Assembly (NCBI GenBank): GCA_012934845.2
Contig: WNNJ02000147.1
Location: 152,538-216,537 of the forward strand
Source of the DNA: Pomphorhynchus laevis
Taxonomy: Eukaryota > Acanthocephala > Palaeacanthocephala > Echinorhynchida > Pomphorhynchidae
Length of the DNA stretch: 64,000 nucleotides
Direction: 5' to 3'
The stretch's first letter is position 1. Each line of letters opens with the position of its first letter. Shown here in pieces: positions 6,651 through 41,600 of this stretch. The notes under the pieces were generated by a model. It searched no databases and had not been told where the DNA came from. It worked only from the letters and a program-made list of their open reading frames with translations. The translations under genes were made by a program, and so were the position numbers.

Positions 6651-7711
6651 TGTGCGGCTTTTGCAGTGCTGTTATACGAAGGGCTACGAGGAGTGAGCAA
6701 AACAAACCTACCGATGATAATGATAATAACCAATGTACCAATTCATGTACAGACACCACAAAACAAGCCGATCAACTAGAGATCTCCCCTCACGTCCAGA
6801 GTAAAACACAACATGATAATAGCCTTTCTGTGGCTTCAACGCCAACTCGAGTGTGGAAAAGGGGACATGAGAGGTCATATACGATTACTAAGATAGTTTC
6901 TGATGACGATTCGCACATCATTTCATCTACGCTAGAAAATTACTTGCCTCCTAAATCAGTAGTAAATGCCACAAGTTCCAACATTGAAGTTGAGCCTCAA
7001 TGCCGGATGGGCGACAGTGTTTTACGGACTTCATTGAATTCAAAGCATGCTCTTATAAATGTTGCACCATGTGATAAGCCAATTATCGACAACAATGACA
7101 CCAGTGTCCAAGCAAATTCGTCGTCCAGCTTGTGCACGTCTTCAGACAACAGATCCCCAACCCATATAGCATCGAACTTTTCCCCTACAGAAAATAGTAA
7201 AGTTCGACATGCGAAGTCGGTTGAGATAACTCGGCATCATTATGACAGGTCATATAGCGTGTTATTCAGCGAACTTACTGAGTCCAATTCCGCAAACTCA
7301 CAGGAACATATGGACCATGACGTGTCTATTTTGCGTAAGGTATTATCCCATCTATTGCATGAAGGTGATGAAGAGTTAGCATCGTCTATACACGTGAAGA
7401 AGCTATTTCGGCTTGGTAAAAGAACACAGGAGAAACCAAGACTGTTGAAGGTGATATTGTCCTCTAGTGATCATGTGCGCATGTTGTTATCACGTGGATA
7501 TCGTCTTAGGGGGTTGCCATTTCGTATCCTTCGTGACCTTTCGCCAGATGAGCGATTACAATTACGAAAAGCAAACATCGAATTGATACACCGGCTTTCT
7601 CAAGGTGAGGCTAATATATGCATACGGGATTTTCGGGTTGTCAAGTGGCGTCCTGTCGTACGTTGGAAACAGTTGGCTCCTTTAACTGTCGGGACCCCTG
7701 CTTCCATGTAA
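6605..7711 (+). CDS. CR1-like ORF1 protein, 5'-truncated and fused to gag
   Basis: The 368-codon open frame is a junction product: its first roughly 16 residues (MRQLVQLAIYHLRSFM) continue the gypsy gag, and CR1 ORF1 begins at CGFCSAVIRR. The rest is a polar linker followed by a conserved C-terminal domain with KKLFRLGKR, KPRLLKVILSSSDHVRMLL and ILRDLSPDERLQLRKA, shared with ORF1 of the other CR1-like copies. This domain probably binds RNA, by analogy with other LINE ORF1 proteins. The first half of the ORF1 zinc finger is missing. It overlaps ORF2 by 94 bases. Confidence 0.8.
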   Translation: MRQLVQLAIYHLRSFMCGFCSAVIRRATRSEQNKPTDDNDNNQCTNSCTDTTKQADQLEISPHVQSKTQHDNSLSVASTPTRVWKRGHERSYTITKIVSDDDSHIISSTLENYLPPKSVVNATSSNIEVEPQCRMGDSVLRTSLNSKHALINVAPCDKPIIDNNDTSVQANSSSSLCTSSDNRSPTHIASNFSPTENSKVRHAKSVEITRHHYDRSYSVLFSELTESNSANSQEHMDHDVSILRKVLSHLLHEGDEELASSIHVKKLFRLGKRTQEKPRLLKVILSSSDHVRMLLSRGYRLRGLPFRILRDLSPDERLQLRKANIELIHRLSQGEANICIRDFRVVKWRPVVRWKQLAPLTVGTPASM

Positions 7712-10690
7712 ATTCAGAGAACACTGACCATTCCTTAGGGTATCTGATTGTATTTGATAGACCGTGCCTTAGTAAAACCAAAAAGGATTCCAATGCAACT
7801 CGTTGCTATTTATCGGTAGGTTATTCAAATTTACGAAGTCTTCCTCCACAACTTGTAGAGCTTCGATACCATGTTGAGGTTAATGCGTATGATATATTCT
7901 GTGTTAGTGAGTCATGGCTACATGAACACATCTTGGATGCCACTGTAAATATTCCAGGTTATCGTCTACTTCGAGGGGACAGGAGGTCCAGTATGCGAGG
8001 GGGCGGTGTTGCAGTGTACGTTCGAGACCATTTGCTAATTTCTGGCATCGATCAAGTTTGTGATCCGCAAGGCTCGTTCGAGAGTATTACCTTTCATATT
8101 GGGTATGATCGTGTTGGTATCAGTCTCTGCGTTGTATATCGCTCACCTTCTATGATCACTGATTGTAATCTTCTGAAGTCAGTATTGCGATCGATAAGTA
8201 TCAGTTCTCATTTCCTTCTTCTAGGAGACTTCAACCTACCTAGATCAGATTGGCGGCAAACAATATTTGATGATGGCACCGTCGTAGAAAGAGAAATCTC
8301 CCACTTCCTCGCTGATGAACTCTTACTAGTACAACACATTCAAGAGCCCACACGATTTTCTTCCCATAATAATGATACTATACTTGACTTGGTTTTTTCC
8401 AAACGTCTTGAAGACATAGCTCGAGTGGATTATCTTCCACCGATAGGTAACTCTGACCACTGCGTGCTATCACTACAGGTCACCCCAAACTTTAAATTCC
8501 GCCATTTTACGGCTCCCATCGTAAAACGGGTTTGGTCAAAAGTGCTTGATGAGCAAATTTTATCTTTCTGTCAACGTCGTCCACTATCTTTAACAAATAC
8601 TAAAGAAGTCTCACTAAAAGTGATTGGGGATTACCTTTTAGGTATTTCTGACGTGTTTGCACCAAAGCGTATCATCTCGCCAAATACTAAATATCCTGTT
8701 TGGTTCGATAAGGACCTGAGATTGATGTTGCGAGTACGAAATCGTCTTTGGAAGTTATCTCGTTCGCTTCCGTATTACGCCAACATTTATAGGTATCTTA
8801 GGAACGTCTGTACTCGTATGAAAACGTTAAAACGTGATAAATTCGAATCTACAATCATCAAGGAAGTTAATAGCAACCCCAAGCTATTTTGGTCATATGC
8901 TCGGCAAAACGGAACGCTCAACTCTGCAATCAAGCATGTGCACTCTGAATGTGGCTTGGTTACAAATGAAACTGATATAGCTGAGACCTTCGCATCCTCG
9001 TTCTCTTTATCCACTTTACCACATTGCGATTCTCATATGATATGGTATGGGTGCCCTATCCCTCCGCGTAATGAATCCCGGCCAATTTGCGTTACTGAAA
9101 TTCAAGATTATCTCAATAATATTCGTCCTTTTAGCGCAGCTGGCCCCGATGACATCTCCCCATACCTGCTCAAAGCTTTATCGAGTTACCTGGCACCATT
9201 CCTGACTATTATCTTTGATAAAATTCTGGCCACTGGCAGTGTCCCAGAAGATTGGAAAACTGCAACCGTTGTTCCTATTCCCAAAAAAATTTTTGCATCA
9301 TCCTGTGGTGATTATAGGCCAATAAGCTTAACCTCTTCTCTGTGCAAAGTTCTCGAACGCGCCATCAGCACTAGAGTCTACGATCATCTTGTCTCTCTTG
9401 GTATACTATCGTCCGCTCAACATGGTTTTCGTCACTCCCGTTCTTGTTTGACGAACTTGCTTACCGCGCGCGAAACTTGGACCCAGTCGTTAAGTTTTGG
9501 TAGCTCACTCGATATAATCTTTATTGATTTTTCGAAAGCCTTCGATCGCGTCCCTCATGATGGGATGATTAGGTTGTTAGCACACTACGGAGTATCCTCC
9601 ATGTTATGCAATTGGATTCGTGATTTTTTGGACGGGAGATCATTTCAGGTGAGGGTTGGCAATAGCATGTCTTCTACTAGGTTAGTTAAATCCGGAGTTC
9701 CGCAAGGTACAGTCCTTGGTCCCTTGCTTTTTATTATATTTCTCAATGATCTTCTGTTACGCATAAACAGTCCCTGCCTGGCATTCGCAGACGATGTGAA
9801 AGTGTGGTGCGATAGCATCTCAGATCCTGATGGCCGGCATCTACAACATGATCTCCAGACAATCTACGACTGGAGCAGTGCTACCGGTATGACCATAAAT
9901 GTAGATAAGTGCGTTCATATGAAACTCGGCAAATGTAAATCTGATCATGAATTCTATTTAGGATGTTATAAGCTTCACAACATTTCTGTTCATAGAGACC
10001 TAGGGATTATTTTGAATAACGACCTTAAAACACGACCGAATAACGATTATATCTACGGTAAAGCCATGAAGGCCTTGTATTGTATTAAGAACACATTTAG
10101 TAAGCTGCATCCAAAATTATTTAAGCATCTCTACTGTGCGTTAGTCCGTCCGCATGTGGAATACTGCATCGCATCAACTTTTCCATCCACCAAGGCTGAG
10201 ATGAAAAAGACCGAGTCGATTTTACGTAGAGGGACCAAACTTTGCATTACATCTCTTTATTCTTACAATGAGCGCCTAGCTTGCTTAAAAATGCCTTCAA
10301 CGGCCCAGAGGCTACTATATTTAGATCTTGTAGCGATGTGGCATTTGGTTCGTGGAAAAGAGGGGTTCCCATCCAATTCGATAAAATTGAGAAATTCGCG
10401 TCGCAGAGGTCACTCCCTTACGTTATTTAAATTCCCCATGGCAAAATAAGGAGTGTGAGTAGGCTTTCCCACCGCGCATTGAATGTTTGGAATTCGCTGC
10501 CTGAAGACGTCGTCAATGCTACTAGCAATAGACACTTCAAGAAGATGCTGCTGAAGTGGATTGTGAACTCTAATTTGGATTCGTGGATGTATTTTAATTG
10601 ATATTTTAAAATGTAATTTGTGAACAGTTGAAACAGCCATTTGCGGCTAGTAACTTGTACACTGTAATAATAATAACTAGCGAAATAATA
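6650..10690 (+). mobile_element. CR1-like LINE, copy 1 (5'-truncated, nested in gag)
   Basis: The element begins inside the ORF1 zinc finger at CGFCSAV (about 6650), directly after gag sequence, and runs to a TAA-rich tail near 10663-10678. It holds a 5'-truncated ORF1 and an ORF2 with apurinic-type endonuclease and RT. The 3' UTR shares CAGTTGAAACAGCCATTTG with copy 2, so the two families end alike. Gypsy gag resumes at about 10690. No target-site duplication is evident, as expected for CR1-type integration. Confidence 0.88.
7618..10601 (+). pseudogene. CR1-like ORF2: endonuclease and reverse transcriptase, one frameshift near the end
   Basis: Open for 943 codons from the ATG at 7618. Endonuclease motifs in order: GYSNLRSLPPQ, SESWLHEH, RGGGVAVYVR, LLGDFNLPRSDW and GNSDHCVL. 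RT motifs: VVPIPKK, YRPISLTSSLCKVLE, QHGFR, FIDFSKAFDRVPHDG (motif A), SGVPQGTVLGPLLF (motif B) and FADDVKVW (motif C). Compared with copy 2, a run of C near 10432-10435 is one base short. This shifts the frame and ends the protein early at 10447-10449. The missing C-terminal coding (SRLSHRALNVWNSLP) is still readable in the shifted frame to 10601. Otherwise intact. Confidence 0.9.
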
Positions 10691-12005: not shown

Positions 12006-13202
12006 ATGAAGAAAGCAAATTCGAAGAGAGCGTCAAACACTATACATATCACGCAACATCGTAATGCGTATAAGCGGCTAGAGGTCGAATGCTGCAATAA
12101 AGGCTGTGAAGTGTGGTCTATTGTCGACATTCCTTTAAATACCGAGTCGTCACTCAAGAGCAAGGACTTTTATTGCGGCTTTTGTTCTGCTACAATGATT
12201 TCGGCCCTCCAAATGAAACTAGTGCAAGATATGGTTTGTGATGTGAATTGTTGTGATATATCGTTACCTATCAACTTAAATGACGTTCGTGTCTCTCAAG
12301 ACAGCACGGACCATCAAACTTCGATAAACACTTGTACCGTTAATCCTGTCGTTAAGCTGCCATTAGATGACAGTTCAACTCCTGACCTATGTGAACCGAG
12401 GATTGAATTACCTTCACTGTCATCTACGCATCAGCACGATAATACTTCAAATGTCGAACTTCAAATGCTGTCATCCTTTCAGGACAAAGAAAAATCGGTC
12501 ATTCATGTTGAACAAACTACACCAGCTGTAAACAAAAGAAGGGTATGGCGCAACACTCTATTGCAACCTACACGAAACGCTGGATCGACATACCATCAAT
12601 TGGGTGAAATCAGAGGTAGCGATTCGAGTGGGGCCATCGATAGAAAACAGAAGGCCAAAAATAAGAATAAATCAGGAAATTATTTACCTTCAAATGGTCA
12701 GAGCATTTCTTTGGACAACGCTCCTTCTACAAACTACCGTTCGCATCCAGATAGGTCTTGCAATATCTTATTTAGTGGTATCGCTGAATCAAAGGCCAGT
12801 AACTCACAAACACGTATGAATGATGATGTGTCCAGCCTCCGTACTGTGTTCTGTCAGTTACTCTTAGAAGGTGATGAGAAGCTAGCTTCTACTCTGAAGG
12901 TTACAAAGTTGTTTCGACTTGGAAAAAAGGTGGTAGAGAAACCAAGATTGTTGAAAGTTGTATTATCTTCCGCAAAACATGCAGACCTTTTGCTCAAACG
13001 TGGTTTTAGACTTAAAGATTATCCACATCGTATTCTTAAGGATCTGAGTCTCGAAGATCGTTTAAAGTTGAAAGAAGCAAAAACAGTATTACGAAACCGG
13101 CTATCTGAAGGTGAAACGAACTTATGCATACGAAATTTTCAGGTTGTCAGGTGGCACCCAGTAGTTCGTTGGAATCCCATAACGATCAACAGCGTCACTT
13201 AG
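12006..13202 (+). CDS. CR1-like ORF1 protein with C4 zinc finger
   Basis: 398 residues. Near the N-terminus (about residues 26-63) it has a four-cysteine finger: C in VECCNKGCEVW, then FYCGFCSA, i.e. C-X4-C, roughly 28 residues, C-X2-C, with a conserved Trp, reminiscent of PHD-type fingers in some CR1 ORF1s. A long Ser/Thr/Asn-rich linker follows. The C-terminal domain has ILFSGIAES, KVTKLFRLGKK, KPRLLKVVLSSAKHADLLL and HRILKDLSLEDRLKLKEA. The likely role is RNA binding in the retrotransposition particle (family inference). The stop lies 79 bases inside ORF2. The ATG at 12006 begins a Lys/Arg-rich stretch and is the first in frame. Confidence 0.85.
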   Translation: MKKANSKRASNTIHITQHRNAYKRLEVECCNKGCEVWSIVDIPLNTESSLKSKDFYCGFCSATMISALQMKLVQDMVCDVNCCDISLPINLNDVRVSQDSTDHQTSINTCTVNPVVKLPLDDSSTPDLCEPRIELPSLSSTHQHDNTSNVELQMLSSFQDKEKSVIHVEQTTPAVNKRRVWRNTLLQPTRNAGSTYHQLGEIRGSDSSGAIDRKQKAKNKNKSGNYLPSNGQSISLDNAPSTNYRSHPDRSCNILFSGIAESKASNSQTRMNDDVSSLRTVFCQLLLEGDEKLASTLKVTKLFRLGKKVVEKPRLLKVVLSSAKHADLLLKRGFRLKDYPHRILKDLSLEDRLKLKEAKTVLRNRLSEGETNLCIRNFQVVRWHPVVRWNPITINSVT

Positions 13203-16162
13203 CAGTATCCAGTTTGAATTTTGCTAGTTCGTCTGGAAAAGGTAGTTTCAACAGTCATTCATCGCAACTCTTCAATAGTGTTAGTTTCAATTCTGATCTG
13301 GGACACTTAGTTTCATTCAGCAAATTATTCACCGTTCCTAGTAATCCCTTACCACAACCCACACGCTATTTATCGATTGGGTATTCTAATCTTCGTAGTT
13401 TGCCTGCTCAAATAGTGGAGTTGAAGTATCACATGCTTTCTCATTCGTATGACATTTTCTGCGTTGCTGAGTCCTGGTTGCATCAATATATTGTCGATAC
13501 CACTGTGAACATTCCTGGTTTTCGCCTTATACGAAGCGACAGGATATCAGATAGGCGAGGTGGCGGTGTCGCCGCGTATGTCAGAGAAAATTTCCTCATA
13601 TCTGAGGTGTTGAATATTTGTGACCCTTGTGGGTCTTTTGAGACTCTATGCTTCCGTATTGATCACTCAGCGACCAGTATGAACTTTTGCGTCGTGTATC
13701 GATCTCCGTCAGTAATTGCAGACACTGATCAACTAAAAGTTATTTTACAATCGGTATGTTCCTCCCCTCACTTTATTCTTTTGGGCGATTTTAATCTTCC
13801 ACGATCTAGATGGTCAGACTATGTCTTTTCTGATGGTAGTTCCACGGAAAGGGAAATATCTGAGTTCCTTGCTGAGGAACTCATGCTGATTCAGCATGTA
13901 CAAGAACCAACTTGCTTAACTTCAAGATCGGATTCGGTACTTGATCTGGTGTTTTCCAGATATGTAGGAGACATAATCAAAGTTGATCATCTCCCTCCTT
14001 TAGGAAGTAGTGACCACTGCTTGATCTCCTTGACGGCTGTCCCTTATTCCAGATTCTGTCCACCTTGTTCAAAAACTTACAAACGTCATTGGTCGAAAGT
14101 GAGAAGAGAAGATGTTTTGAGAGTTTACAACCAATTCCCGTGTACTTTTATGAACACGGACAAGCTATCATTGAATATGATCACTGATTACCTACATAAA
14201 TTATCTGATATTCTTGCCCCTATGCGCGAATCCTCTTATGCTGCTAAGTCACCTGCATGGATAGATTCCAACGTCAGACAACTAATAAGTTCAAGAAATT
14301 GTTTATGGAAGCTTCAGCGTTCTGATTCTAGTTTCTCTGCCAGATATAAATATGTTCGAAATCTTTGTACTAGAGTGAAAGCAACAAAACGATGTGCATT
14401 CGAATCGTATATCGCTAATAATGTAACACGGAATCCAAAACTATTATGGGCCTATGTTCGTCGCAACAGAACCCTTAATACAGAAATCAAGTATGTCCTT
14501 AATGCGGAGGGATGTATGATAACTTCTCAGAGTGGTATTGTGGAATGCCTTGCTACGTCTTTTTCGATACCGACAAATAATTCACAAAGAGCTTCTATCA
14601 CTTCGCATGGTGTAGCATTAAAGCAATCTTCGCGTTTTCTTCCAGTAACGATTAGTGAGATTGTAAGTCAGCTTGATCAGCTTGACCCATTTAGCTCTAC
14701 TGGCCCTGATGACATTTCTCCGTTTCTCTTGAAGAATTTATCTAGATATTTGGCTCCTTCCCTTCTTGCTATTTTTGAGAACAGTTTGACCAGTGGATGT
14801 GTTCCTGAAGTCTGGAAAACTGCCATCGTAGTTCCGATCCCAAAGAAAACCATTGCAACGGCTTGTACTGACTATAGACCAATCAGCCTGACTAGTTCTC
14901 TATGCAAAGTGCTTGAAAAGTTGATCGCCACCCGGATCAGGCATCACTTGAGGGAACTCGGAATAATGTCGTCTTCTCAGCACGGTTTCCTCTCTGGTCG
15001 TTCCTGCTTAACAAACTTATTGACTTCACGCGAAATGTGGGTTGAGGCGGTCAGTCGCGGCCAATCAATTAATGTGGTATTCATTGACTTTTCAAGAGCA
15101 TTCGATCGGGTGCCGCATGAGAGCTTGGTAGCATTACTATTTAACTACGGCATTCCTGTAATGTTGTGTAATTGGATTCAAGATTTCCTACGTCATCGTT
15201 TCTTTAGGGTGAGAGTTGGCACCCATCTTTCCACTTCCAGACGCGTTTACTGTGGTGTTCCGCAAGGTACCGTACTAGGACCTCTGCTGTTTATTGTGTT
15301 CCTTAACGATTTGTTGCTGCGGATTCAGAGTCCCTGTCTTGCTTTTGCTGACGACCTCAAAATATGGTCTGTAGATGATATTGATCCGCTTGGCATTTCC
15401 CTGCAGGAAGACCTTAATGAAATATATCAATGGAGTGAGGCTACTGGTATGAAGATCAATGTTGACAAATGCGGCCACATGAAATTAGGAAGGCGTTGCG
15501 ATGACCGTCGTTTTCGCCTCGGAACTTCAATTCTTAATGTCGTCATGGAGTATAGGGATCTGGGTGTCATGGTGCATAGGACATTGAAATCCCGATCAAA
15601 TACAGAGTTTGCCCATAGCAAGGCTTTGCGAGCTATGTACTGCGTCAAAAATGCATTTAATCGTATTAATCCATACGTCTTCAAACGGCTTTACTGCGCT
15701 CTTGTTCGCCCGCATATAGAATACTGCGTGCAAGCAGTTTTTCCATACACTAAGAAAGAGTTCAATAGACTAGAGTCAATCCTTCGTAGAGGTTCTCGAA
15801 TGTGTATGGATGGATCATATTCATATCGTGAACGGCTTGAATTTCTAAAGATACCATCTTTGGGTCAGAGGCTATATTACCTAGACCTTGTTGCATTATG
15901 GCGAATGGTAAATGGGATAGATGGTTTTCCCTCGTGCTATGTTAAAGTTTGTTCTCAGACGCATCGTGGCCACCCGTTGAAACTATTTAAGTTTCCCCAT
16001 GGTAAAGTAGTGAGTTTGGCTAGGCTCTCACATCGAGCATTAAACGCCTGGAACACGTTGCCAGGAGAAATAGCATGTACCAAGGACTTATCTCAATTTA
16101 AAGTTCAACTTCGTCAGTGGATTAACGATCATGGCATTCCGAATGTATACAATATTATGTAA
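13124..16162 (+). CDS. CR1-like ORF2 polyprotein, endonuclease plus reverse transcriptase
   Basis: 1012 residues, uninterrupted. Endonuclease domain (about residues 80-300): YSNLRSLPAQ, AESWLHQY, RGGGVAAYVRE, LLGDFNLPRSRW and GSSDHCLISL. RT domain (about 500-800): VVPIPKK, YRPISLTSSLCKVLE, FIDFSRAFDRVPHES, CGVPQGTVLGPLLF, FADDLKIW and GMKINVDKCGHMKLG. The C-terminal part has RLYCALVRPHIEYC and LSHRALNAWNTLP. It nicks target DNA and reverse-transcribes its own RNA (family knowledge). The ATG lies within ORF1, and the same start-in-ORF1 arrangement is kept in copy 1, pointing to reinitiation or frameshift translation. All catalytic motifs appear present. Confidence 0.93.
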   Translation: MHTKFSGCQVAPSSSLESHNDQQRHLAVSSLNFASSSGKGSFNSHSSQLFNSVSFNSDLGHLVSFSKLFTVPSNPLPQPTRYLSIGYSNLRSLPAQIVELKYHMLSHSYDIFCVAESWLHQYIVDTTVNIPGFRLIRSDRISDRRGGGVAAYVRENFLISEVLNICDPCGSFETLCFRIDHSATSMNFCVVYRSPSVIADTDQLKVILQSVCSSPHFILLGDFNLPRSRWSDYVFSDGSSTEREISEFLAEELMLIQHVQEPTCLTSRSDSVLDLVFSRYVGDIIKVDHLPPLGSSDHCLISLTAVPYSRFCPPCSKTYKRHWSKVRREDVLRVYNQFPCTFMNTDKLSLNMITDYLHKLSDILAPMRESSYAAKSPAWIDSNVRQLISSRNCLWKLQRSDSSFSARYKYVRNLCTRVKATKRCAFESYIANNVTRNPKLLWAYVRRNRTLNTEIKYVLNAEGCMITSQSGIVECLATSFSIPTNNSQRASITSHGVALKQSSRFLPVTISEIVSQLDQLDPFSSTGPDDISPFLLKNLSRYLAPSLLAIFENSLTSGCVPEVWKTAIVVPIPKKTIATACTDYRPISLTSSLCKVLEKLIATRIRHHLRELGIMSSSQHGFLSGRSCLTNLLTSREMWVEAVSRGQSINVVFIDFSRAFDRVPHESLVALLFNYGIPVMLCNWIQDFLRHRFFRVRVGTHLSTSRRVYCGVPQGTVLGPLLFIVFLNDLLLRIQSPCLAFADDLKIWSVDDIDPLGISLQEDLNEIYQWSEATGMKINVDKCGHMKLGRRCDDRRFRLGTSILNVVMEYRDLGVMVHRTLKSRSNTEFAHSKALRAMYCVKNAFNRINPYVFKRLYCALVRPHIEYCVQAVFPYTKKEFNRLESILRRGSRMCMDGSYSYRERLEFLKIPSLGQRLYYLDLVALWRMVNGIDGFPSCYVKVCSQTHRGHPLKLFKFPHGKVVSLARLSHRALNAWNTLPGEIACTKDLSQFKVQLRQWINDHGIPNVYNIM

Positions 16163-37174: not shown

Positions 37175-37206
37175 ATTTGTGTTGCTGGATTCATCTTGCT
37201 GTCAAG

Positions 37207-37827
37207 ATGACATCTGCCGAAGAGCCAACTTTGAGCGAATGTTTTATACAGTCATCAGTACTGATTAAATCAGCTATTGATAATTTAGCAGTTAATGAAA
37301 AAGCTAAGCATCATATTCAGATGGCCTTTAAGGATGCTTTTATAAAATGCCCTGGTTTAGCTACACAGTTTATTGTTGAATTAGCAAAATCCTTGAATGT
37401 CAATACTAACATATATGCACTGTTGCTGAAGCAAGAGCGGTTCACACCTGCTCCTGTGGTACAATGCACAAACCGAAAAGAACTTATTGAACTTACATCA
37501 GAGGCTGAGCAGCTGAAATCTATTTTGTGTTCAATACCTGACACAATCGGAAATCGACAAACCTTTCTAGAGAGCATTAAACAGATCGCTGCTGCTATAA
37601 AAAAGAATATCGATGCCGTCAATGTGGTCATGCGCTTAATCGAAAATCCTTATCGTAGAAACGATGTCGACAGTCATAAAAAGGAATTTGTCAGATCATC
37701 AAGGCATTTTAGTAATACCTTAAAGACGTACTTCAGAGCTAATAACTCGGACGATGTGTTTATATCAGCAGCTAGGCTAATAACCCAGACAAACGATTTA
37801 CTTGGCACAATTCGACACTCGTTGTGA
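37207..37827 (+). CDS. PDCD10: Programmed cell death protein 10 / CCM3
   Basis: 206 residues; vertebrate PDCD10 is about 212. It is an adaptor of STRIPAK, binding GCKIII kinases through its N-terminal dimerisation region and striatin/CCM2/paxillin through its C-terminal FAT-homology helices (family knowledge). Seen here: the C-terminal half carries LKSILCSIPDTI, IKQIAAAIKKNIDAVN, KKEFVRSSRHFSNTLKTYF and FISAARLITQTN, closely matching the family. The N-terminal 70 residues are divergent but keep the AFKDAFIKCPGL segment. The coding region has no intron, unusual for a gene with several exons in vertebrates. The chosen ATG follows the likely acceptor; the frame is also open upstream to 37138 without an ATG. 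Confidence 0.93.
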   Translation: MTSAEEPTLSECFIQSSVLIKSAIDNLAVNEKAKHHIQMAFKDAFIKCPGLATQFIVELAKSLNVNTNIYALLLKQERFTPAPVVQCTNRKELIELTSEAEQLKSILCSIPDTIGNRQTFLESIKQIAAAIKKNIDAVNVVMRLIENPYRRNDVDSHKKEFVRSSRHFSNTLKTYFRANNSDDVFISAARLITQTNDLLGTIRHSL

Positions 37828-39780
37828 AGATATTGCACATTTTATCAATTTTAATATTAGATAAATTCATGTTGTAATAATTGTGATTTGCTACTAAGAT
37901 CATCAACCTATTTCTTTAGCCTTTGTCGTAAGCACGTCCACAATATACGAATTAAAATTTTAACGTTTTTATTAACAGAGTGAAATCTGAATCAAAAATT
38001 TATTCGTTTTACTAGATCAGTAAGTCATAAAGAGGTGATTAAATTTTCACCACTTAAATAATTACCTAATTATTACTTAATTAAATTAATAAAGATTTAA
38101 TTACTTAATTAAATATTTGGAAGCTGATAAAATTAATTATTTTATCAAGTAATGTATTTATTTTTTAAAATATATTAATTAAAATTTATAAATTTAAATT
38201 ATATTAATTTTTATATAAATTTTACAAGTTTAAATGGTAAATTGATATTAAATAATTAAATCTTTTATAAAATTAAAAATGTTCGCAAAAATACAATATT
38301 GAGCTATTTTTTAATGTTTTTAATAATATTTACAACTATTTTAATATAATTTTATTTAATATTTAGCACAACTTAAAGCAAAAACAAATAAAATGGTGTA
38401 AATTATTAATATTTTATAAGTTTTATTTTTTTACATTTTATTAATGTAAAATTAATATGATTAATTATAAAAATAATATTAATATTAATTTTTATATTTA
38501 TTATATAAAAATGTACTATTTTATAATTTTATGAAATGCAATAAAACTAAATTTATTTTTTTAATATAATAGTGATGGAAACTTAATACTATAATGATAA
38601 ATTACAAACTAATTATTTACTAATTAAATGGATATCCTCGCAAATTAAGGTGGAGTGAGAGTTTCTAAAGTTTAAAAATAACTTGATGTTATCTATATAT
38701 TCATATCGATCAAGTTACGCTAAAAATTATGATTTGAAATAACAATTTGATAGTTTAAAAAAGCTCGGTAATTAGATTAAGATTATTGGGCAACATAATT
38801 TCAGCAATGGCTGAATATCTTTATCGCTTTATTAAGAATTGCTCTCGGAACTGATAATCTAACAAATTGGATTAATGGACAGGAAGTTTTAGAGCACATA
38901 CTGTTTAATTAAAACTTGATTAAGCTCATAAATGTTTGTCGAGGATTTAAAAACGATTATCATAATTGTTAGTTTAATTTAAATGAGCATAAAACCAAAT
39001 AATAGATTTTAAGCTGTAAGCGTTGGTTTAATTTAAAAACATTGTTTTAATCAGCAGCACTAATTTAATCTGCTGGCATTATCTTTATCCACAGGTCATG
39101 CTTTAATCAACAAACACTGGACTTACTGGTTAGAGGAGCTTTTTTAGTAAAGTTTTGATAAAGATTTAGCCAGTTGGCCAGCTCATTGAATTTTACATTA
39201 TAGCCTGGGTTATATAGCCCTATCAATAATACTTTAGCAATGCGTATAACATATGACTCATCACACATTTAAGTAAAAACTAAACTTACTATTTGTGTTG
39301 CTGTTCAGTATACAAAGAATAATAGCCGACTACAAAATATAAATAACAACTGAAATGTAAATGAATTAATACTATTGTTACATGTAGCACATAAAGAGTT
39401 TTGTAAAATTAAATAATATTTACTTGAAATAGAAAAATTACATTTTTATGAAACATGTGTTTCATAAAACACATGAAACACATAAAACGTGTTACATATA
39501 ACACGTTTTATTTGAGGGTTCGTCATGTCATTGAAGGGATATTATGCTACTGTAGTACAAACATCGATAATTGAGCATTGGATCATACACTACCAAGCTA
39601 TTACTGGATAACCTTATAATCTAAATTTATAAAAAGTTTAGGTAAATAACACATGGTAGTCGCGAATTACAGATAGTTACGCTATCTTAACCTGGAGTTT
39701 TAAATTTTAGTTAGTTGATAACATTCATGCTATCTCAATATAACCTTTACCAAGTGTACTTGATAAAGGCTATACATCGT
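37828..39780. other. AT-rich intergenic region, no gene
   Basis: Very AT-rich. A perfect 13-bp hairpin with a CATA loop is at 39482-39511 (arm ATAAAACGTGTTA), preceded by the palindromic stretch TGAAACATGTGTTTCA at 39459-39474. Nothing coding is recognised. Confidence 0.6.
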
Positions 39781-39781
39781 T

Positions 39782-40144
39782 TTTATCATGCATTTACTCG
39801 GCTCTACGACAATGGTGGCTATTGCTCCTTTCTTCGTCAATTTATTAAGTTTGCTGAATATGCAACACATGCTTGTATTCAGCTGTAGCATGTGCTTTGA
39901 GGAGCGCGGGCTTCGTGACTTCCTTTCAGAGGTTTACTAGGGATCAAGTATTGTCGAAGTTGTGTAGCTACAGGGCCACACTGATGAGACCACCCTGTAT
40001 TGATAAGTATACTAAGGTCGAAATGCCTCATTGGACGCTTGCTGTCTGTGGTAAGCGCATTTCGGGTTAAACTTCCCATCGCTTTAAAAAAAACTTCCTT
40101 TTTCCTAAATCTTTATCACGCATTTACTTGGCTCTACGACAATG
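39782..40144 (+). mobile_element. 330-bp repeat unit with 33-bp direct repeats and a hammerhead-like fold
   Basis: The 33-bp end (CGGCTCTACGACAATG is its last part) occurs at 39782-39814 and, with two mismatches, at 40112-40144, a period of 330 bp. The interior is clearly more GC-rich than its surroundings and holds a hammerhead-like core at 39976-40051. Size, direct-repeat ends and ribozyme recall the roughly 330-bp schistosome Sm-alpha satellite/SINE, or a retrozyme, though no sequence identity with those is claimed. The 65-codon open frame inside (39873-40070) is not thought to be a gene. Confidence 0.6.
39976..40051 (+). ncRNA. Candidate type I hammerhead ribozyme
   Basis: Stem I: CCACA (39976-39980) pairs with TGTGG (40047-40051). 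Core CTGATGA at 39981-39987. Stem II: GACC (39988-39991) pairs with GGTC (40016-40019), 24-nt loop. Core GAAA at 40020-40023. Cleavage triplet GTC at 40044-40046, directly before stem I. Stem III is weak: A40023-U40045 plus two G.U wobbles, then a 17-nt loop. All conserved single-stranded core bases are present. Self-cleavage is uncertain because of stem III. Confidence 0.6.
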
Positions 40145-41600
40145 CATGTTTTACATATCAATGTAACGTGTTATACAAATTTTTGATGACACTGTACTTT
40201 GTTTGAATCCTATAAGTCAATAGTAGTACGCTGCATTTCAGTATTAGTGGACCTCATTAGTTACTGATCCAAAACCTACATTTCACATTTTGGTCCTTTT
40301 AATGTTGGCTGACAATCACTCACTCGTCTGCTTTTTTTGTCATTTAGTTTTAATCAAAGACTTTTGTCTTACATTTTGTGTTTATTAGTAACGTATTTTA
40401 GTCAAAATTGGTAATCGAATTTTTGTTTGTGAGCGCGTCGTATACTATTGCCAAAGAGACATTAAATTTGACGGACACCGACGATTGGGCCATCACGAAT
40501 AAATCCAGTAAATTATCGTCAAATACAAAAATACAAAACAGATCGTGTATTAGGCAATCTCGAATTCATGATTCCCGTAAATTATCGTCAAATACAAAAC
40601 AAATCGTGTAGACTAGTCTTCTTCGATTCTTCGAAATCGGTTGTCTATTATAAAACGCTTTTTTGTACAATTTTTTATATCAAATTAGCAAAGCTAAAAG
40701 ACGTGGTTTTCAAGACGTTAAATTCGTCGTAAAGAACACGAAAATATAAAAATTAACCCTATTGACGAAGGCTGCTAAGGCATCCACAACCTAAGCATCT
40801 TATGAGTCACCCTAGATGCCGAGGTTTTCATACTCGAATAAATTATAATCCAAATCTATGTAATAAAGCAATCTTATCACAATTTAATGAGATAATTATT
40901 TCACTTTGCAAAGTTTTCTAAAACTCTGCAGATTTCTGTATCAGTATAACTGAAGTAATATATTTTTTGTGCAATGAATAAATTAAAAAATGCTTGAAAA
41001 ATTCAAAATAATTTCTTTAACCTGGTATTTAATAATTTATAAGTGTAAATTTAAAAGATTTACGATATTTTTATAAAAATATTACAAAAATAATAGCATA
41101 TAATTTATAATAATTTATTTTTATTGGTAATTTTGTAGCTTTTCAAATGTAATTGATTTCAATAGAAATTAAAAGCATTTGCGCTATTAAGATTTTATTA
41201 GTCTAATTTTATTTATTAATTTTATTAAGTTTTCTCGTTTTAGATATCACATTATTGTTCTGCATGATTTGCCGAGCATATTTGTTTAGCAAATGTACAC
41301 ATCGCTTATTTCAAACCTCCAGGTCAGTCTTATGCCCATAAATTCACGCATAAGACTTTACCACCAGGTCAGTCTTATGCAAAACATTTAAAATTTGCTT
41401 AAGTCTGTCATCCTATTACGGGAAAATATTTATTTCAAATGGTTTATTTTAATATTACCTATAAATTTGTTAAAACAAAATATAAAAATTAAAATATTTT
41501 ATGTAATCAACTTTGTCAATTTTACAAACAAAGAGTAAAATACTAAAGTTTATGGAATTACCAAGATTTATTAAAGTTTTCTCCATTACCAAATCAGCTA
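40145..41600. other. Intergenic, short duplications only
   Basis: GTAAATTATCGTCAAATACA is duplicated at about 40507 and 40579. CCAGGTCAGTCTTATGC is duplicated at about 41319 and 41366, with the inverse GCATAAGAC between them. No coding or RNA gene recognised; the end of the stretch should include the NDUFAF3 promoter or first exon. Confidence 0.5.

Follow-up and report, generated by a model that had tools for sequence, protein, structure and literature searches.

The window, the 64-kb stretch of DNA analysed here, carries a PDCD10 frame at 37201-37824, close to the repeat described below as the sequence-only reading had it. This frame is a 100% match to Pomphorhynchus laevis GJ496_004114, a protein bearing Pfam PF06840. 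At 7615-10446 and 13115-16159 lie two ORFs of LINE type, in which endonuclease and reverse transcriptase domains were recognised. ARAGORN found no tRNA gene in the window, and a SNORD107 candidate beside the element (40178-40222) scored 21.5 bits, below the cut-off of 50. Between 39782 and 40144, two 33-bp direct repeats enclose two pieces of a dispersed element and a hammerhead motif, arranged as follows:

39782-39814, no strand: left member of the 33-bp repeat pair, interpreted as a target-site duplication, 94% identical to 40112-40144
39818-39888, minus strand: inverted 5′ piece of the element (unit positions 238-306, 80% identity), as would result from twin priming
39899-40077, plus strand: main piece (unit positions 373-513 followed by 1-31), spanning the hammerhead cut; best dispersed copies 85-89% identical
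39968-39975, plus strand: CTACAGGG, complementary to CCCTGTA(G) of loop II, a possible stem I-loop II contact with 7/8 pairs in the window copy
39976-40051, plus strand: type I hammerhead motif, from stem I to stem I, recognised by its core, by the family alignment and by a strict descriptor
39993-40000, plus strand: loop II partner CCCTGTAT (consensus CCCTGTAG)
40023-40045, plus strand: stem III, with an A-U pair, a U.G pair and then the hairpin 40025-40038 with 4/5 pairs; one hairpin pair covaries in the family
40078-40092, plus strand: probable end of the element in an A-run, which would fit the 3′-end class at unit positions 45-50
40093-40111, no strand: about 19 bases between the element and the right duplication
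40112-40144, no strand: right member of the pair, likewise interpreted as a target-site duplication, 94% identical to the left one

Read directly from the sequence, CTGATGA (39981-39987), GAAA (40020-40023) and GTC (40044-40046) follow one another in type I order. GACC (39988-39991) pairs with GGTC (40016-40019) in stem II and CCACA (39976-39980) with TGTGG (40047-40051) in stem I, and the predicted cut is at 40046/40047. All these parts were found at the positions claimed. Stem III, to which the sequence-only reading had given one Watson-Crick and two wobble pairs, is better than this: with the pairing scheme of the family, it is composed of A40023-U40045, U40024.G40044 and the hairpin 40025-40038 (GCCTC/GACGC) with 4/5 pairs. 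The window copy retains the core and stems I and II, and its stem III is damaged. A strict descriptor (CTGANGA, stem II 4/4, GAAA, U16.1 and H17, stem I 5/5, wobbles allowed) found one site on the two strands of the 64-kb window and one match in 100 first-order Markov windows of equal length. At one match per 100 Markov windows, the site alone is suggestive rather than compelling. The Rfam covariance check counts against a hammerhead, with nothing above cut-off in the window and no hammerhead in 39500-40500 at E up to 10. In our interpretation of the sequence, the window holds a genuine but decayed hammerhead motif, with self-cleavage as a prediction.

Relatives of the main piece (39899-40077), hereafter family 1, are dispersed in the genome. 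Scoring 40 of the 838 candidates gave at least 53 matches, and identity reaches 85-89% in the best of them. A first alignment comprised 46 copies, the window copy included, and in its consensus all parts of a type I hammerhead are present: CCACA/TGTGG, CTGATGA, GACC/GGTC, GAAA, a stem III and the GTC cut. For the analysis of core conservation, the consensus was taken over 104 non-identical copies, each aligned over 75 bases or more and with space for flanking sequence. The copies L067-L116 were picked by exact core pattern, and core conservation was therefore judged only on the 51 copies picked by similarity to the whole stretch. In these, the 13 core columns showed a mean divergence of 3.5% compared to 9.2% elsewhere (P=2e-4), a contrast that held without CpG (P=5e-5). 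All ten essential core bases were kept in 35/51 copies; when ten columns were drawn at random, the mean was 23.5 copies (P=0.019). In 30/51, at least 4/5 pairs of stem I and at least 3/4 pairs of stem II were retained as well. Most of the other copies thus keep the CTGATGA/GAAA core. The core pattern matched exactly at 172 places in the genome, and the reversed control pattern at none; among the matches listed, at least six belong to another family (family 3, see below) and two fit neither family. The hammerhead reading is supported by this conserved core and by the complete consensus motif.

Covariation and fold tests do not support the hammerhead structure of family 1; they are weakened because many family copies are decayed. 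None of 20 fetched family loci had an Rfam match above cut-off. The best sub-threshold match, RAGATH-1-hammerhead, reached 22.1 bits compared to a cut-off of 56.3 and was in the right place in 2/7 loci at a loose threshold. Covariation was assessed on 93 copies (45 similarity-chosen and 48 pattern-chosen) aligned over nearly the whole 93-nt stretch. It was not above shuffles for stems I, II and proximal III. When the distal hairpin and a putative loop contact (see below) were included, the covariation score was reached by 1/500 shuffles, and both-side-changed pairs and further pair types were not above shuffles. The gain came mostly from a single clear pair in the distal stem III hairpin (U-A in 43, C-G in 27 and U-G in 9 of the 87 copies with letters), which could be one change common to a subfamily. 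Of the compensatory changes that the sequence-only reading had named as a check on the three stems, this pair is what was found. RNAalifold predicted no consensus structure on the family copies, and at minimum energy the consensus is predicted to adopt a fold other than the hammerhead (-29.0 compared to -13.2 to -13.5 kcal/mol). The lack of an Rfam match and of a consensus structure, together with the weak covariation, is what one would expect if the hammerhead were a chance resemblance in an unrelated repeat. Yet the family consensus completes the stem III that is damaged in the window copy, and neither the core conservation nor the 172 pattern matches against none in the control would be anticipated, making chance resemblance highly improbable.

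In the family 1 consensus, CTACAGGG beside stem I is complementary over 8 nt to CCCTGTAG in loop II. Across the 93 copies, 88.3% of cells are paired and most copies keep most pairs. The unrelated hammerheads of family 3 carry GTTGGTAG next to stem I, and their loop II contains CTACCAAC; this was seen in 6 copies paired by eye, one of them with two mismatches, and the search pattern itself required something like GTTGGTAG. A pseudoknot between stems I and II has been predicted for about 40% of hammerheads (Perreault et al. 2011, PMC3088659), which likewise have a stem I flank complementary to loop II. Compared to these, the contact in family 1 is 8 nt long and putative, and its most variable pair is unpaired in 26/93 copies.

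Tandem copies gave access to the repeat unit. In L036, a 520-bp unit lies between two cut sites; 520-bp tandem copies were observed in L036/L069 (one locus) and in others, and pattern matches on contig C2107 are spaced by about 520 or 1040 bp. The unit has a GC content of 0.42 and no long ORF: its longest stop-free stretch, in a trimer of the unit, is 78 aa, and no ORF with reverse transcriptase and GIY-YIG was found in it. A typical copy is a 5′-truncated unit which crosses the cut and ends at preferred places. Exact flanking repeats of at least 10 nt were present in 18/93 distinct insertions compared to 2.7% with shuffled partners, and those of at least 12 nt in 9/93 compared to 0.55%. Flanks at the junctions are AT-rich, as judged by eye.

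Metazoan non-LTR retrozymes are described as non-coding, low-GC tandem repeats with a type I hammerhead, units of 150-450 bp and duplications of more than 4 bp (Cervera and de la Pena 2020, PMC7229834). Family 1 shares the type I hammerhead, the absence of an ORF, the low GC content, the occurrence in both tandem and dispersed copies and the target-site duplications of more than 4 bp. It differs from the retrozymes of that report in its 520-bp unit, instead of 150-450 bp, and in a hammerhead below the Rfam cut-off, and it is known from DNA alone. Acanthocephalans are not named in the part of the report on which we draw, and we found no report of hammerheads in Acanthocephala in the open-licence literature. 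The likeness to animal retrozymes, already suggested by the sequence-only reading, is supported by the conserved core, the complete consensus motif, the tandem 520-bp units and the target-site duplications. Its second comparison was with Sm-alpha of schistosomes, which likewise has a type I hammerhead in repeated DNA whose unit measures a few hundred bp. This likeness was one of description, and the schistosome satellite is ruled out since the host, identified as P. laevis by the PDCD10 frame, is an acanthocephalan.

We located 126 junctions on the unit. Their 3′ ends fall at positions 45-50 (12 junctions), 110-124 (30) and 130-149 (36), and the remainder either reach the query end at 260 (14, tandem joints) or lie elsewhere (34). 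The two main clusters are about 25 nt apart. Leaving aside 8 duplicates and 7 clusters truncated at the ends of loci, we counted 108 distinct whole insertions, of which 81 cross the cut. By orientation, 81 of the 108 are single and 27 mixed, and 12 of the mixed ones (12/108) show the same 3′ end outward on both sides. A looser both-sided rule, under which the window copy qualifies, as do ends that fall elsewhere than in the usual 3′ region, gave 31/100 in a set with some loci counted twice; we kept the stricter count.

These ends recall the products of a purified anole Penelope-like protein, which cleaves each of the two strands and extends it, reverse transcription beginning at two neighbouring internal sites that correspond to an optional genomic ‘tail’ of 30-40 bp (PMC11167929). 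Family 1 resembles the hammerhead-bearing Penelope-like elements of that study in its tandem and partial-tandem copies, adjacent internal 3′-end clusters, apparent footprint of both-strand extension and AT-rich flanks. It differs from them by a unit devoid of a reverse transcriptase/GIY-YIG ORF, by a stem III with a longer hairpin and by clusters about 25 nt apart instead of 30-40. The outward-facing copies of family 1 would agree with extension of both strands. What counts against this parallel is that, in vitro, the hammerhead of the anole element is not needed for insertion (PMC11167929).

From these features we infer that the mobility of family 1 is due to a Penelope-like enzyme. Transcription of source copies would yield multimeric RNA, which the type I hammerhead would cleave into unit-length molecules that could be circularised. 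A reverse transcriptase, most likely Penelope-like, would then start at internal sites mostly 110-150 nt past the cut. Because copying usually runs across the cut site, the template would be a circular or an uncut multimeric RNA. In the case of the window copy, a staggered break primed from its two sides would account for the 33-bp duplication and the inverted 5′ piece. Family 1 is thus probably a new family of animal non-LTR retrozyme, moved by an enzyme of this kind.

The layout of the window copy, with an inverted piece and a main piece inside the 33-bp repeats, fits priming from both sides of the break. The sequence-only reading had placed the motif in a 330-bp direct-repeat unit. The 33-bp repeats, their 330-bp spacing and their 94% identity are as described, but the unit is not: with up to 3 mismatches, the 33-mer occurs only at these two places in the 249-Mb assembly (3242 contigs), which rules out a 330-bp satellite unit. 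The published draft genome of P. laevis is about 260 Mb with 63% repeats (PMC7310846). The fetched copies have 39899-40077 in common, many also the inverted 39818-39888, and none the 33-mers. The repeats are best read as a target-site duplication around one 5′-inverted, truncated insertion. The 3′ end of the window copy itself is outside the 110-149 class. The insertion is old and its ribozyme a predicted one. All in all, the window very probably holds a decayed, 5′-truncated and 5′-inverted insertion of a non-coding P. laevis retrozyme family with a 520-bp unit and a presumed Penelope-like mobiliser.

Candidate enzymes are abundant in the same genome. We obtained 75 GIY-YIG matches, one of which (on C1660) is on a bacterial-looking contig; with one GIY-YIG frame as query, there were at least 150 matches (150 scored of 5546 candidates), many in 908-aa frames. 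Locus L119 (C1271:19100-23000) is a tandem Penelope-like element with GIY-YIG before the reverse transcriptase, a permuted order. There, the frame after GIY-YIG (499 aa) has no Pfam match and overlaps a second frame with an RVT_1 match barely above cut-off (29.9 compared to 29.6 bits); the next GIY-YIG-like frame, also with no Pfam match, was recognised by its similarity to the GIY-YIG frame. The order of endonuclease before reverse transcriptase presumably recalls the permuted Naiad clade. L119, the one tandem Penelope-like element inspected, was rejected as the direct parent element: a pattern search recognised no hammerhead core in it, and its similarity to the unit is confined to short matches. 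The C1660 locus (L118, 6800-10800) carries an ATP-grasp/glutamate-cysteine-ligase-like ORF and a GIY-YIG ORF that by eye looks like UvrC; this contig is likely that of a symbiont or a contaminant.

Alternatively, family 1 could derive from a Penelope-like element still to be discovered, one that has an ORF of its own and is served by the hammerhead; the segment would then be a non-autonomous or pseudo-LTR form of it instead of a retrozyme. Hammerheads do occur in Penelope-like elements with a similar end signature (PMC11167929), and the 3′ ends and head-to-head insertions of family 1 would suit such an origin. In addition, fragments similar to the Penelope-like endonuclease or reverse transcriptase of P. 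laevis were found in 8/85 family 1 loci, a count with no random-locus baseline, and reverse transcriptase fragments lie within about 25 bp of the element at L034 (1365-1661) and L071 (1099-1359). However, these 8 fragments represent different protein parts at different distances, like chance neighbours of an abundant element, and the tandem copies, with their period of 520 bp, lack any long ORF (stop-free stretches of 78 aa at most, in the trimer). We therefore consider this derivation rather unlikely.

Besides the retrozyme-like family 1, at least three further hammerhead families are present in the P. laevis genome. Family 2 is detected by Rfam RF00163: the 73 scored candidates gave 68 matches with E no higher than 1, of which 62 exceed the cut-off. 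Its copies are in tandem, often in steps of about 296 bp, with a CTGAAGA core in L047. Identity of families 1 and 2 was rejected, since the Rfam-positive hammerheads belong to a different tandem repeat with this ~296-bp spacing, as seen in L047. Family 3 forms 441-443-bp tandem arrays (L089, L092, L076 and L094), with at least 210 matches (40 scored candidates). Family 4 has a very short palindromic stem III and gave 734 pattern matches and none with the reversed pattern; a 461-bp tandem was found in L092. We take its short stem III to resemble that of the hammerheads in Penelope-like elements.

These families also bear on whether family 1 could have spread by some other route, such as LINE-mediated retroposition, leaving the hammerhead as a functionless relic. 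The LINE-type ORFs of the window, with their reverse transcriptase and endonuclease domains, would offer the means, and the decay of many copies and the minimum-energy fold other than a hammerhead would be natural for a relic. Nevertheless, a relic would leave unexplained why the core is more conserved than the rest of the element, and a LINE route is at odds with the clustered internal 3′ ends and the both-sided 3′ ends. That this genome has three more tandemly repeated hammerhead families also speaks against it, and we regard such a route as improbable.

The question at stake is which reverse transcriptase moves animal retrozymes. P. laevis has many non-coding hammerhead insertions, with ends like those of in vitro Penelope-like products, alongside many open Penelope-like frames, so that the link between retrozymes and Penelope-like enzymes is directly testable there. 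Family 1 also provides a case of a hammerhead family staying below the Rfam cut-offs. More tentatively, and with less chance of being right than wrong, one could extend the mechanism to animal retrozymes in general. A Penelope-like enzyme would copy them by priming both strands of a staggered break on circular retrozyme RNA; since the internal start sites, shortly after the ribozyme, would be identical for both strands, a single insertion could show one and the same 3′ end facing outward at either side. Acanthocephala would have several independent families of this sort, and in families 1 and 3 the long stretch of loop II complementary to the flank of stem I would control the ribozyme.

Among the fetched loci, L012 contains a long hairpin at 402-550, which scored below cut-off to several microRNA families and is probably an inverted-repeat element.
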